A stretch of 64,000 nt of DNA from an uncultured Desulfobacteraceae bacterium (lineage in GTDB: Bacteria; Desulfobacterota; Desulfobacteria; Desulfobacterales; UBA5852). The notes below the pieces were generated by a model that was not told where the DNA came from, did not search any database, and saw nothing but the letters and a program-made list of their open reading frames with translations. Of the stretch, positions 31,377 through 61,527 are shown one piece after another (the stretch's first letter is position 1; each line of letters begins with the position of its first letter). The stretch is from assembly GCA_913060875.1 (NCBI GenBank), contig CAJXSL010000003.1, forward strand, positions 397,045 to 461,044, given 5' to 3'. The position numbers were made by a program, and so were the translations under genes.

Positions 31377-32408
31377 TTAAAGCGCTTCGTCTGCCAGAAC
31401 CGCGCGCAGTTCGGCCAGCGGGATCGGTTCGATTACGGCCCGGCCAATGCCCTCCAATAAAACAAAATGAACGTGATCGCCTTCCCTTTTTTTATCCTTG
31501 CCCAAGGCTTCCAAAACGGCCTCCCGTTCAAAGGCCATTCGCACGGGCAGGTTCAACTGCCTGAGAAGCGCCCGCATCCGATCGGTTTCGCCGGCGGTGA
31601 TCAAACCGCGACGTTGCGAGAGATGGGCTGCCAGCACCATGCCGATACTGACGGCCTGGCCGTGGGGCACGCCGGTCACTTTTTCGATGGCGTGCCCGAA
31701 GGTATGGCCGAAATTGAGTTTGCGCCGTTCGCCGGCTTCCTTTTCATCCCGATTGACGACGGCGGATTTGATGACCACCGATTCATAGACCAGCCGTTCG
31801 ATCACCCCGGTATCCAGCGCCAGGGCCCGGGCGGCATCTTTTTCCAGGGCGTCGAACATCCCGGCGTCGGCGATAAGGGCATGCTTGACGATTTCGGCAA
31901 AACCGCACTGCAGCTGCGCTTCGGGCAGGGTGTGTAAAAGCGCCGGATCGCAGATAACGAATCCGGGCTGGTTGAACGTCCCCACCATGTTTTTATAACC
32001 GCCGAAATTGACGCCGTTCTTGCCGCCGACACTGGCATCCACCTGGGCCAGCAGGGTGCTGGCCACGAACCCGAAGCGGATGCCCCGCAGATAGGTCGAG
32101 GCCACGAAGCCGGCCACATCACAGACAATGCCCCCGCCGATGCCGAGGATCCAGGCGGAACGATCCGCCTCGATCTCCACCAGTTCAGCGTATATCCGGG
32201 CAACCGTATCGAGGGTCTTGATGCCTTCGCCGGTTCCGATGGTAATGATAGGGCCGGCCGGGAACTGGTCGGCATATCGCCGGCCAACGTTTTCGTCCGT
32301 GATGATGATCGGTGACGCAACCGGCAGATAGCGGCCTAAATTACCGAGTGCTTCACCGACTATAATCGTTGATGGGCCGGAGGCGCCCTGGATCTGGATT
32401 TGTTTCAT
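31377..32408 (-). CDS. aroB: 3-dehydroquinate synthase
   Basis: Cyclises DAHP to 3-dehydroquinate with NAD and a divalent metal. 343 residues from ATG 32408; the frame stays open upstream through DAHP synthase in another frame but that extension is not family-like. 'ILGIGGGIVCDVAGFVASTYLRGI' for NAD, 'DASVGGKNGVN' for substrate, metal ligands in 'FAEIVKHALI' (Glu), 'NFGHTFGHAIE' (two His). Follows DAHP synthase by about 95 bp on the same strand and probably lies in its attenuated transcript. Confidence 0.95.
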   Translation of the reverse strand: MKQIQIQGASGPSTIIVGEALGNLGRYLPVASPIIITDENVGRRYADQFPAGPIITIGTGEGIKTLDTVARIYAELVEIEADRSAWILGIGGGIVCDVAGFVASTYLRGIRFGFVASTLLAQVDASVGGKNGVNFGGYKNMVGTFNQPGFVICDPALLHTLPEAQLQCGFAEIVKHALIADAGMFDALEKDAARALALDTGVIERLVYESVVIKSAVVNRDEKEAGERRKLNFGHTFGHAIEKVTGVPHGQAVSIGMVLAAHLSQRRGLITAGETDRMRALLRQLNLPVRMAFEREAVLEALGKDKKREGDHVHFVLLEGIGRAVIEPIPLAELRAVLADEAL

Positions 32409-32502: not shown

Positions 32503-33579
32503 TCACGATGCGCGCTCGAGCTGACCACGGGTGCCCACAAGTTTTTCGTGGGCGCTGGTCAGCAATTCTTCGGTGGTTTCCCATGAAATACATTCATCGG
32601 TGATGGAAACGCCGTACTTCAAGGCCGCTTTATCTCCGGTGAATTTCTGATTGCCCTCATGCAGGTTGCTTTCCAGCATGAGGCCGATGACGGATTCACT
32701 GCCGTTGACGATCTGGTCGACGACATTGCGCCAGACAATGGCCTGGCCCTGGAATTTTTTGTGGGAATTGGCGTGGGAACAGTCCACGATGATGGCCTCG
32801 GGAAGCCCTTTGGTAATCAGCATCAGCCGTGCTTCTTCGATGCTGATGGGGTCGTAATTGGGCCGGCTGCCGCCGCGCAGGACGATATGCCCGTAAGGGT
32901 TGCCGCCGGTTTGCACGATGCAGGTCTGGCCATCCTGGTCGATTCCCAGGAAGGTCTGAGCGGCATGCGCCGCCACGAGGGCGTTGATGGCGGTGGACAG
33001 CTTGCCGTCGGTCCCGTTTTTGAATCCTACCGGCATGGAAAGGCCCGAGGCCATTTCCCGATGGGTTTGAGATTCGGTGGTACGGGCACCGATGGCCGAC
33101 CAGCAGACCACATCGGCCAGGTACTGCGGTGTAATCGGCTCGAGCATTTCGGTGGCGGTGGGCAGTCCCATTTCGGCGATTTGCATAATCAGGCGGCGGG
33201 CTTTGACCAGCCCGGCATTCATGTCGCAACTGCCGTCCAACTCCGGATCGCTGATCAGGCCTTTCCACCCTATCGTGGTGCGCGGTTTTTCAAAATAGAC
33301 CCGCATGACCAGGAAGAGGGTATCTTTTACCTTTTCCTGCAGGGCAGCCAGGCGTTCGGCATACGCCAGAGCGGCTTTTTCGTCATGGATAGAACACGGA
33401 CCGATGATGGCCACGATCCGTTTGTCTTCCTTGTTGATGATGCGCTGAATCGTTTCCCGGCCTTCAACGACGGTTTTTTCCGCCTGGGGCGAGAGAGGCA
33501 GTTGTTGCTTCAATGCGCGGGGCGGCATCAGTGGCAGATAGTCCTTAATTCTGAGGTCTTCGGTTCGTGGTGCGGGCAT
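32503..33579 (-). CDS. aroF: 3-deoxy-7-phosphoheptulonate (DAHP) synthase, class I
   Basis: First step of aromatic synthesis: PEP and erythrose-4-phosphate to DAHP. 358 residues, of the AroF/AroG/AroH type: 'AIIGPCSIHD', 'MRVYFEKPRTTIGWKGLI', 'TATEMLEP', 'WSAIGARTTESQTHREMASGL', 'GFKNGTDG', 'VDCSHANS', 'GLMLESNL'. The N-terminal extension (about 35 residues) is where Tyr or Phe act allosterically in enteric enzymes; which amino acid inhibits this one cannot be told. AAAGGAA precedes the ATG. The 266-bp leader carries a Tyr/Phe-rich peptide and two terminators, so transcription is probably attenuated by aromatic amino-acid supply. aroF is used as a label; aroG or aroH are equally possible. Confidence 0.95.
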   Translation of the reverse strand: MPAPRTEDLRIKDYLPLMPPRALKQQLPLSPQAEKTVVEGRETIQRIINKEDKRIVAIIGPCSIHDEKAALAYAERLAALQEKVKDTLFLVMRVYFEKPRTTIGWKGLISDPELDGSCDMNAGLVKARRLIMQIAEMGLPTATEMLEPITPQYLADVVCWSAIGARTTESQTHREMASGLSMPVGFKNGTDGKLSTAINALVAAHAAQTFLGIDQDGQTCIVQTGGNPYGHIVLRGGSRPNYDPISIEEARLMLITKGLPEAIIVDCSHANSHKKFQGQAIVWRNVVDQIVNGSESVIGLMLESNLHEGNQKFTGDKAALKYGVSITDECISWETTEELLTSAHEKLVGTRGQLERAS

Positions 33580-33668: not shown

Positions 33669-33704
33669 CAAAAAGGCCGTGGAGCGATTTATCGCCACGG
33701 CCTT
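33669..33704 (-). terminator. Leader terminator T2 of DAHP synthase
   Basis: Minus strand: 10-bp stem AAGGCCGTGG / CCACGGCCTT with an inner CGAT/ATCG pairing and TTTTTGTT after it. Lies 90 bp before the DAHP synthase ATG. Its 5' arm (33694-33700) is complementary to the 3' arm of T1, so it can be disrupted. Confidence 0.82.
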
Positions 33705-33711
33705 TATAAAT

Positions 33712-33747
33712 AAAAAAACCGCGGCATTTGGTCGGCCGGCGGTTTTT
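33712..33747 (-). terminator. Leader terminator T1 of DAHP synthase
   Basis: Minus strand: 9-bp stem AAAAACCGC / GCGGTTTTT (33739-33747 with 33714-33722), with an additional inner GCC/GGC pairing, running into seven T residues. It starts 20 nt after the stop of the leader peptide. Its 5' half (33730-33743) can instead pair with the end of the leader coding sequence (33775-33788). Confidence 0.78.
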
Positions 33748-33767: not shown

Positions 33768-33845
33768 TCAGGGCACCGCAGGCAGACCGGCGAAATAAAA
33801 ATAAAAGCCGAAATAAAAATAATATTTGTCTGCCAAGCTTTGCAT
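33768..33845 (-). CDS. Tyr/Phe-rich leader peptide of DAHP synthase (attenuator)
   Basis: A 25-codon frame on the minus strand with ATG and TGA. Residues 8-18 read YYFYFGFYFYF: five Tyr and five Phe codons in eleven positions, in a peptide that otherwise begins MQSLADK and ends AGLPAVP. GGGA lies about 7 nt before the ATG, and a sigma-70 promoter ends about 28 bp upstream of the ATG. Two terminators follow before the DAHP synthase gene. This is the layout of pheA/pheS/trp-type leader peptides, where ribosome stalling at the control codons prevents termination. The codon run cannot be explained by composition: the local bases are AT-rich but the frame is specifically TAT/TTT/TTC. It is far too short for routine gene finders. 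Function inferred. Confidence 0.88.
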   Translation of the reverse strand: MQSLADKYYFYFGFYFYFAGLPAVP

Positions 33846-33872: not shown

Positions 33873-33901
33873 ACGATAACGGTGGAGGAGACGAATGTCA
33901 A
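33873..33901 (-). promoter_or_regulatory. Sigma-70 promoter of the DAHP synthase leader
   Basis: Minus strand TTGACA (perfect -35) - 17 bp - TATCGT (-10, 4/6). It begins 9 bp after the aroE stop codon, and the expected start near 33866 leaves a 20-nt leader before the Tyr/Phe peptide. This separates DAHP synthase-aroB from the upstream aroD-aroE genes. Confidence 0.8.
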
Positions 33902-33910
33902 GAGGCAGCT

Positions 33911-34798
33911 TCACTTTACGGAGGGGCCCCGGCGGATGGCATCGAACATGGCTTCCACAGGTGCTTCCAGACCGGTCCACATTTGAAAGCCGGCCGCGCC
34001 CTGATACACCAGCATCCCGAGACCTTCCACCAACCGACAGCCTTTTTGCCGGGCAATGTCCAAAAGCCGTGTTTGCCGCGGATTGTAGACAATATCGCAG
34101 ACCGCCAGGCCACCGTGCACCAGGTGATCCGGTAGGGGGCACTCCTCCTCCCGTGGATGCATGCCGACGCTGGTGGTATTGACGAGAATATCGGTGTGGC
34201 GCAGCACCGTCTCGAGAGCGGGGGGCTCCATGGGCACGGCGCGACAGCATTCCCGGCCCTGTCGATTGACATCACCGGCCAGCGAATGAGCCTTGGCCTC
34301 GGTTCGGTTGGCAATGGCGATGCGAGCCGCCCCCTGCCGGGCCAGGGTCATGGCGATGGCCCGGGCCGCCCCCCCGCCGCCGAGCAGCATGACGGATTGT
34401 CCTTTGATGGACAGACGGCCGGCCGCTTCGATGGATCGGACGAATCCGATGCCGTCGGTATTGTATCCGGTGGAGCGGCCGTTCCGGATGGTGACGGTAT
34501 TGACGGCCCCGATGGCCCGGGCCAGCGGATCGACAGCGTCCAGGCAATCCATGATGCGGATTTTATGGGGGATGGTGACGTTGTAGCCCGCAAAATTCAT
34601 TTTGGCGATACCGGCCGTCACCGTTTCTAAATCCTCATCCGCCACTTCGATGGGCAGGTAGCAATAGTTCAATCCGAGGATCCGGAAGGCCCGATTGTGC
34701 ATGACCGGCGACAAACTGTGCCCCAGTGGCTGGCCCAACAGTCCGACAAGGCGGGTCCGTGTGTCGATGGGGGGATGGTGATGTTTATCGGTTTGCAT
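33911..34798 (-). CDS. aroE: Shikimate dehydrogenase
   Basis: NADPH-dependent reduction of 3-dehydroshikimate. 295 residues, about 20 longer than E. coli AroE through an N-terminal extension. 'GQPLGHSLSPVMHNRAF' (shikimate-binding Ser pair), 'FAGYNVTIPHKIRI' (catalytic Lys), 'NTDGIGFVRSIE' (Asp), glycine motif 'MLLGGGGAARAIAMTLARQGA' and 'IANRTEAKA' for NADPH. Product feeds aroK. It lies 51 bp after aroD and immediately before the DAHP synthase promoter. Confidence 0.94.
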   Translation of the reverse strand: MQTDKHHHPPIDTRTRLVGLLGQPLGHSLSPVMHNRAFRILGLNYCYLPIEVADEDLETVTAGIAKMNFAGYNVTIPHKIRIMDCLDAVDPLARAIGAVNTVTIRNGRSTGYNTDGIGFVRSIEAAGRLSIKGQSVMLLGGGGAARAIAMTLARQGAARIAIANRTEAKAHSLAGDVNRQGRECCRAVPMEPPALETVLRHTDILVNTTSVGMHPREEECPLPDHLVHGGLAVCDIVYNPRQTRLLDIARQKGCRLVEGLGMLVYQGAAGFQMWTGLEAPVEAMFDAIRRGPSVK

Positions 34799-60066: not shown

Positions 60067-61527
60067 ATGGGTGATCAGATTACCATCTCCATCTGGGTGT
60101 TTGGGCTGCTGGTCGTTCTTGCCCTGGCCGCCGTCCTCGATCGGGTGCTCATCCCCAGCACCCGCTGGTTTCTGCGCCGGCGGATCAACCGGGTCATCGA
60201 TGAGATCGGCACCCGCCTGGACATCGAAATCCGCCCCTTTCAGCTCACCAAACGCCAGGTGCTCGTCGACCGTCTGGCCTTCGATCCCAAGGTTATCGCG
60301 GCGGTCCAGGACTATGCCCGGGCCCATGAGATGCCGTTGGCGGTGGTGCAGAAGAAGGTCATGCGCTATGCGCGCGAAACCGTGCCCTCTTTCAACGCCT
60401 ATCTGTATTTTCGCATCGGCTACTGGGTGGCCAAGCGCATTGCCAGGCTTTTGTATCGGGTGCGCGTGGGGCTGATCCAGAACGAGCACTACCGTGCCAT
60501 CGATCCCGATTCCACGGTGGTGTTTGTCATGAATCACCGCTCCAATATGGACTATATCCTGGTGGCCTTCCTGGCGGCCGAGCGGACGACCCTTTCCTAT
60601 GCCGTGGGGGAGTGGGCCAAGATATGGCCGCTGCACATGCTCATCCGGGCCATGGGGGCCTTTTTTGTCCGGCGCCAGTCCGGCAACACCCTCTACCGGC
60701 GGGTGCTGGAACGCTACATTCACATGGCGACCCGCGAGGGCGTGTGCCAGGCGGTTTTCCTGGAAGGCGGCCTGAGCCGGGACGGCCGGCTGCGCGATCC
60801 CAAGCTGGGCCTGGTGGACTACATGCTGCGGGGCTTCGATCCGGACAAGGACCGGGATATCGTTTTTATCCCGGTGGGCATCAACTACGACCGCACCCTG
60901 GAAGACCGCAGCCTGCTGCGGGCCCTGGACCCCGGGGCCCGGAAGCGCAGTGTCTGGTTCGTGGCGCGGACCACGGCCCGCTTCATCGCCCGCAGCGTGG
61001 TCCTCATGGTGCTCAGCCGCTGGCGGCGCTATGGCTATGCCTGCGTCAATTTTGGTGCCCCGGTTTCCGCCCGGGCCTACTGCCGGGAGCAGGATGTGCG
61101 CTTTCACGCTCTGCCCCGGCGGGAACGGTTCCCGGAGATCGAGCGGCTGTGCCGGTCCATCATGGGCGCCATTGCGGATGTGGTGCCGGTGTTGCCCATC
61201 TCCCTGGTTGCGCATGTTTTTCTGAATGCCATGGACAAGGGGATGGATATTCTGGAAATCGAACGGCGCATCAACGGCGCCCAGGAGGAGCTGGCGGCCC
61301 GGGGCGCCCCTGTTTTCGAGGTTCCCCGCAGCACCCGGGCGCGGGTGATTTCCGAAGCCCTGCATATGCTGTTGCTGCGGCGTATGGTAACGGAGCGCAA
61401 TGGGGTCTACCGGGCGGTGCCCGGGGAGAAGGCCCTCCTGGCCTATTATGCCAACGCCATCAGCCATTGGTGGGTGTCCGCCTCCGTTTCCGGGGCTGCG
61501 CAACCTGTCGGCGGGGAGAGAACATGA
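60067..61527 (+). CDS. Glycerol-3-phosphate/lysophosphatidate acyltransferase-like protein (PlsB-related)
   Basis: 486 residues from ATG 60067. One N-terminal membrane segment ('ISIWVFGLLVVLALAAVL'). Acyltransferase motifs: I 'VFVMNHRSNMDYILVAF' (HX4D), II 'AMGAFFVRRQSGNTLYRRVL', III 'AVFLEGGLSRDGRL' (FxEGxxSR), IV 'DIVFIPVGINYDR'. These are PlsB-like, but the protein is half the length of E. coli PlsB and lacks its N-terminal region. Coupled to the GNAT gene by 4 bp. Likely acylates a glycerophospholipid precursor at the inner membrane. Confidence 0.85.
   Translation: MGDQITISIWVFGLLVVLALAAVLDRVLIPSTRWFLRRRINRVIDEIGTRLDIEIRPFQLTKRQVLVDRLAFDPKVIAAVQDYARAHEMPLAVVQKKVMRYARETVPSFNAYLYFRIGYWVAKRIARLLYRVRVGLIQNEHYRAIDPDSTVVFVMNHRSNMDYILVAFLAAERTTLSYAVGEWAKIWPLHMLIRAMGAFFVRRQSGNTLYRRVLERYIHMATREGVCQAVFLEGGLSRDGRLRDPKLGLVDYMLRGFDPDKDRDIVFIPVGINYDRTLEDRSLLRALDPGARKRSVWFVARTTARFIARSVVLMVLSRWRRYGYACVNFGAPVSARAYCREQDVRFHALPRRERFPEIERLCRSIMGAIADVVPVLPISLVAHVFLNAMDKGMDILEIERRINGAQEELAARGAPVFEVPRSTRARVISEALHMLLLRRMVTERNGVYRAVPGEKALLAYYANAISHWWVSASVSGAAQPVGGERT

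Follow-up and report, generated by a model that had tools for sequence, protein, structure and literature searches.

A Tyr/Phe-rich leader ORF and two hairpins as a probable aromatic starvation switch of DAHP synthase in an uncultured Desulfobacteraceae bacterium

Between the genes for shikimate dehydrogenase and DAHP synthase of an uncultured Desulfobacteraceae bacterium lies a 25-codon ORF dense in tyrosine and phenylalanine codons, with two terminators behind it, which raises the questions of whether so short a frame governs the biosynthetic enzyme behind it and of how transcription would pass both barriers. The window analyzed here is the whole 64,000-nucleotide stretch of contig CAJXSL010000003.1 that contains this locus. 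Our analysis draws on sequence anatomy, conservation, covariation, and folding energies, from which we infer that stalling, termination, and read-through take place in vivo; it indicates that the leader ORF and the two hairpins very probably form an aromatic starvation switch that has been kept across the order. The genes, the leader, and its promoter are arranged as follows.

33911..34798, minus strand: aroE, shikimate dehydrogenase, upstream of the leader (above the cut-off of the aroE models)
33873..33901, minus strand: predicted sigma-70-type promoter for the leader RNA, TTGACA-17-TATCGT (consensus scan and relatives)
33768..33845, minus strand: leader ORF with control codons, 25 codons, MQSLADKYYFYFGFYFYFAGLPAVP and stop, conserved among relatives
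33792..33824, minus strand: control codons 8-18; many relatives have Trp or Arg in place of the Gly
32503..33579, minus strand: DAHP synthase (AroFGH class), 358 aa, the proposed regulated gene (TIGR00034 and NF009395, above cut-off)
31377..32402, minus strand: aroB, 3-dehydroquinate synthase, downstream and co-directional (TIGR01357, above cut-off)

The DAHP synthase scores 484 bits with TIGR00034 (cut-off 173), and aroB is probably co-transcribed with it. The leader ORF starts 65 nt past the end of aroE; its codons 8-18 translate into five Tyr, five Phe, and one Gly, exactly the frame and the ten aromatic positions that an initial annotation of this DNA had described. Among the approximately 1,150 ORFs of at least eight codons in the window, the runner-up has six Tyr or Phe per 11 codons against ten in the leader, and none of 40 dinucleotide shuffles of the whole window exceeds seven; the leader ORF is a clear outlier of the window. 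The promoter TTGACA-17-TATCGT, also part of that annotation, was located at 33901-33873 on the minus strand, with 27 nt between its end and the leader ATG. A comparable promoter occurs no more than 130 nt upstream of the leader in 65 of 80 relatives (10% expected from shuffles). The Shine-Dalgarno sequence of the window leader is weak, and the leader fold has a z-score of -4.0. The two terminators said to stand behind the frame, ahead of the DAHP synthase gene, are revealed by folding and by relatives; a simple promoter and terminator consensus scan of the minus strand lists neither of them.

Upstream regions of DAHP synthase homologs (n = 109), taken from the order and phylum to which the window's genome belongs, were searched for a short ORF with at least six Phe, Tyr, or Trp within 11 codons. 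Such a leader is present in 83 of them, a score reached by about 3% of shuffled regions, and at all 83 leader-bearing loci the first terminator (T1) begins 12-31 nt past the leader stop (in one case 51 nt). Within the order alone, 65 of 76 DAHP synthase loci carry both aromatic leader and terminator, so the same short frame does recur upstream of this gene in relatives, as the initial annotation would have it; in a sample of the rest of the phylum, an aromatic leader is found at 13 of 27 loci. Those named contigs that carry this leader bear the labels Desulfobacteraceae, Desulfobacterales, or Deltaproteobacteria, in keeping with the Desulfobacterota of the initial annotation. The remaining 11 order-level loci do not show leader plus T1 directly before the gene; some lie in other operon contexts, and one (L139) has a weaker leader with T1 present.

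The leader peptides share a common pattern (for example, ..SGRFYFYFWYYFxTGLPGVR). The expectation that Tyr and Phe codons would be kept while the flanks drift is borne out in part: the flanks drift and aromatic density is retained, but the identity of the residues drifts as well, Tyr and Phe swapping freely. Besides aromatic density, what persists is the frame, RNA segments 1 to 4 (described below), and the TTGACA promoter. A sub-clade in family f114 (L026, L028, L168, L170, L171, and relatives) has leaders without the GLPGVR ending; there, segment 2 sits in another codon context, GGTTTGCC, segment 3 matches it (GGTAAACC), and T1 contains an A-C mismatch in most leaders. Two Dehalococcoidia/Chloroflexi contigs (L081 and L091) have aromatic short ORFs (..RYFGYYFYR.. 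and ..GYCYYFFTG..) upstream of DAHP synthase; the terminator sequence behind them is a different one, and that phylum may have an aromatic leader that arose independently.

Segments 1 to 4 supply the protector, the antiterminator, and the first terminator.

33828..33834, minus strand: segment 1, GGCAGAC, immediately 5' of the aromatic run, a perfect 7-bp complement of segment 2
33775..33788, minus strand: segment 2, GGTCTGCCTGCGGT (GGTCTGCC..GCGGT), within the ..GLPAV.. codons, the antiterminator 5' strand, which pairs with segment 3
33714..33747 (approximate), minus strand: terminator T1, whose arms are segments 3 and 4, with a U run after the hairpin (folds and relatives)
33714..33725, minus strand: segment 4, GCCGCGGTTTTT, the T1 3' arm and complement of segment 5

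Transcription from the upstream promoter would yield a short RNA in which the leader ORF serves as the sensor of charged Tyr-tRNA and Phe-tRNA. When either is scarce, a ribosome would stall in the Tyr/Phe run and cover segment 1; segment 2, thereby freed, would pair with segment 3 as the antiterminator, T1 (3:4) would be blocked, and RNA polymerase would continue. When aromatic amino acids suffice, the ribosome would reach the stop codon and cover segment 2, T1 would form, and transcription would end. Without translation, the 1:2 hairpin would form and hence T1 as well.

Pairing and its evolution are consistent with this scheme. In the window, 1:2 and 2:3 have energies of -14.0 and -22.9 kcal/mol, respectively. 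In 71 of 81 leaders, segments 1 and 2 pair better with each other than with swapped partners (p = 2e-12), and the evidence for the protector consists of this pairing and of its position, segment 1 lying directly before the run. Segments 2 and 3 likewise pair better natively than with partners swapped among species (p = 5e-7); in 40 aligned leaders, 94% of the cells of helix 2:3 are paired and six of eight core pairs show double changes. Compensatory changes are seen in antiterminator and terminator pairs alike. When the window RNA is folded with segment 2 free, the minimum free energy structure consists of 2:3 plus a helix between segments 4 and 5, and T1 is absent; with segment 2 masked, T1 forms together with the second terminator (T2). 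In the window, T1 has a predicted probability of 0.91 when the ribosome sits at the stop codon; when it is in the run, the values lie at 0.03-0.88 (mean 0.41). The mean in the stalled state is 0.65 among relatives, in which T1 often beats 2:3 at equilibrium, so the switch there must rest on the order of co-transcriptional folding, as in textbook attenuators.

We therefore regard it as highly probable, from this pattern of sequence features, that the leader is a ribosome-mediated transcription attenuator of DAHP synthase and probably also of aroB. The Tyr/Phe attenuation originally proposed for this gene is thus supported by the conserved leader, by T1, and by the compensatory changes; it needs widening in one respect, in that Trp also occurs in 44 of 81 leaders. 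With Trp in about half of the relatives, the sensor is better named aromatic.

The leader also occurs without this enzyme. A covariance model (R1) built from the leader and run on 242 genomes of the order has matches in 211, although only 77 genomes have a homolog of this DAHP synthase. Among the matches examined beyond this DAHP synthase gene, 68 leaders precede the synthase of 2-amino-3,7-dideoxy-D-threo-hept-6-ulosonate (ADTH), an archaeal-type first enzyme of another family than DAHP synthase; these loci were assigned by BLAST to L191, which is above the cut-off for TIGR01949. ADTH synthase is present in 124 of the 242 genomes, a set that overlaps little with the genomes encoding the DAHP synthase, and none was found in the genome of the window. 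In genomes lacking this DAHP synthase, the leader mostly precedes ADTH synthase.

How one stall could open the way past a second terminator is the less obvious part of the design.

33673..33704 (approximate), minus strand: terminator T2, segments 5 and 6, AAGGCCGTGGCGATAAATCGCTCCACGGCCTT followed by a U run (folds and relatives)

T2 stands directly past T1 in 41 of 81 DAHP synthase leaders (L113 doubtful) and in 56 of 68 ADTH synthase leaders. Once 2:3 has formed, the released segment 4 would most likely capture segment 5, so that T2 is blocked too; where T1 forms, segment 5 would stay free and T2 would act as a second barrier. In the energies, 4:5 averages -17.6 kcal/mol natively and -8.3 kcal/mol with unrelated terminators, and none of 367 unrelated terminators pairs as well as the native partner in the window. 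Across the DAHP synthase leaders the 4:5 pairing is 92% kept, with covariation reached by none of 500 shuffles; helices 2:3 and 4:5 jointly contain 39 double-changed cells, against 10.8 in shuffles. The mirror control (3:6, the T1 5' arm with the T2 3' arm) shows covariation at chance level. The result is replicated in the 56 ADTH synthase leaders, where 4:5 beats swaps (p = 0.001; mirror control, p = 0.85). On the ADTH synthase gene tree, the 4:5 core triplet is altered on both strands in eight branches, seven of which retain all three pairs; permutation on the tree reaches the observed level in 0 of 5,000 trials for 4:5 and in 736 of 5,000 for the mirror control. That T2 is a mere duplicate of T1 was considered and rejected: duplication would also give the mirror pairing, which does not covary, so duplication alone does not explain 4:5.

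The chief alternative accepts the attenuator and regards T2 as only a back-up or insulating terminator, with DAHP synthase expressed through leakiness or from a further promoter past T2. The 93 nt between T2 and the start codon in the window leave room for such a promoter, T2 is stable by itself, and about half of the DAHP synthase leaders work without it. At 33 of 41 loci, however, only 15-56 nt separate the end of T2 from the start codon, with little beyond a ribosome-binding site between them; this leaves no room for a separate promoter, and the polymerase must therefore have a way past T2 there. Moreover, in each of two independent gene sets, evolutionary changes in the T1 3' arm are matched by the T2 5' arm, and no such matching is seen for the mirror pairing. 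We consider an insulating T2 unlikely, though worth keeping in view, and think it likely, judging from the pairing data, that one stall disarms both terminators through 4:5 in a domino step. At equilibrium T2 still has a probability of 0.51 in the window and of 0.68 on average once 2:3 has formed, so the domino also needs kinetics.

The remaining alternatives question the attenuator itself. The leader peptide is short and very hydrophobic, and could be a small functional (membrane) peptide or act in trans, attenuation being secondary; a trans role is reported for the trp leader peptide of Sinorhizobium (PMC7298713). This is very improbable here: the conserved C-terminal GLPxVR coincides with antiterminator segment 2 and changes along with segment 3, and the free interchange of aromatic residues fits control codons rather than a folded peptide. 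Terminators ahead of biosynthetic genes are often under riboswitch, T-box, or RNA-binding-protein control, in which case the ORF would be incidental to T1. At the gathering threshold, however, an Rfam scan of the window found no T-box, riboswitch, or other family, and none that was credible at relaxed thresholds (the best relevant match, Phe_leader, RF01859, reaches 18.6 bits against a cut-off of 55); the strongest constraint falls on the translated frame and its aromatic codons, and the conserved pairings are the alternative helices of an attenuator, which together leave such control scarcely plausible. TTT and TAT codons are AT-rich and terminators near genes are common, but coincidence, with ordinary terminators of aroE transcription next to a chance ORF, is hardly credible for a frame that outscores every whole-window shuffle (ten against seven) and is conserved across families with covarying structure.

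By its predicted mechanism, the attenuator is a classic leader-peptide one. Like enterobacterial trpL, pheL, and pheM, it has a protector (1:2), an antiterminator (2:3), a terminator (3:4), and control codons for a pathway product; it differs from them in its mixed Tyr/Phe(/Trp) codons, in controlling the common first step, and in a second terminator tied to the first. The closest functional parallel is the aroR-aroF system of Corynebacterium glutamicum, in which a leader peptide with Phe-Tyr-Phe precedes a DAHP synthase operon, with increased expression on stalling and a response under Phe limitation (PMC11802643, citing Neshat et al. 2014); that system belongs to another phylum, and the passages of that paper that concern it mention no tandem terminators. 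With this precedent, a Tyr/Phe leader ahead of DAHP synthase is not altogether novel; for the present lineage, in which the initial annotation took it to be non-standard, a search of the openly readable literature found no description of a leader peptide at DAHP synthase. For aroF of Escherichia coli and Shewanella, Tyr attenuation has been proposed (PMC2659441, citing Camakaris et al. 1980), so that gene, aromatic signal, and proposed RNA-level control are shared, whereas the portion of that paper on aroF describes no leader peptide; at gammaproteobacterial DAHP synthase loci in the searched set, the leader model finds nothing convincing.

Two serial terminators before one gene are also found in the tandem THI riboswitches of Desulfovibrio, which have one terminator each (PMC545781), and in the rimP leader (PMC2965389). 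The THI tandem comprises two sensors, whereas the window leader has one sensor that apparently disarms two terminators via 4:5. The same search of openly readable literature found no description of a leader-peptide attenuator with linked tandem terminators; the linkage thus appears to be undescribed, a claim of novelty that reaches as far as that literature does.

The genome of the window, which was searched with the covariance model only, contains further matches. One is a Tyr-rich leader, MTRRVDSYYYYAWPEIRPRPWLR (..DSYYYYAWPEIRPRPWLR), with one terminator before aroA, encoding EPSP synthase (L222; contig C10, 112423-112510, minus strand). A weak match (E 0.013; L225, at about 60457-60492 on the minus strand of contig C20) is a leader with WWWW, MRFQGHLELKQWWWWHLT, which stands ahead of trpE and is followed by tandem terminators; from its layout, it would be a Trp attenuator with the tandem design of the window leader. 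A third match (L223, C5:99257) was set aside; it looks like a plain terminator with no aromatic gene behind it. Elsewhere in the searched genomes, the leader precedes pheA (chorismate mutase/prephenate dehydratase; tested at L230, with L270, L277, and L283 read likewise), aroE (L234), and a TIGR01361-class DAHP synthase (L288); nearly all its targets are aromatic biosynthesis genes. When the model was run on DAHP synthase loci almost all of which belong to other phyla, nothing convincing emerged (best E 0.006). On balance, we favor the view that the leader unit is the order's standard aromatic switch, a six-segment domino (1:2, 2:3, 3:4, 4:5, 5:6) that stays in place while the enzyme is replaced (AroFGH, TIGR01361, or ADTH synthase) and that is used at other aromatic genes too.

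Attenuators are textbook material, mostly described operon by operon. Here, a single leader design appears to govern how aromatic biosynthesis is entered across one order and part of its phylum, and appears to outlive the exchange of its enzyme for a non-homologous one; whether regulation is conserved when an enzyme is replaced thereby becomes directly testable. The tandem layout suggests how one stalled ribosome may clear two serial terminators, an arrangement that would tighten repression relative to one terminator. Of practical use are the annotation of a class of short genes and models ready for Rfam, no family of which covers the leader at threshold.

Several matches extend to genes whose products were assigned by sequence reading. 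Four of them, from other families in the phylum, are aromatic leaders ahead of shikimate-kinase-like genes (L299, L305, L311, and L315), and a WWWW leader precedes a gene resembling indolepyruvate ferredoxin oxidoreductase (iorA; L308). Phe-rich short ORFs (..FFFFD) with terminator-like matches are located before putative LivK-type ABC-transporter substrate-binding genes (L309, L310, L316, and L318), where the arrangement suggests that Phe-responsive uptake is possible.
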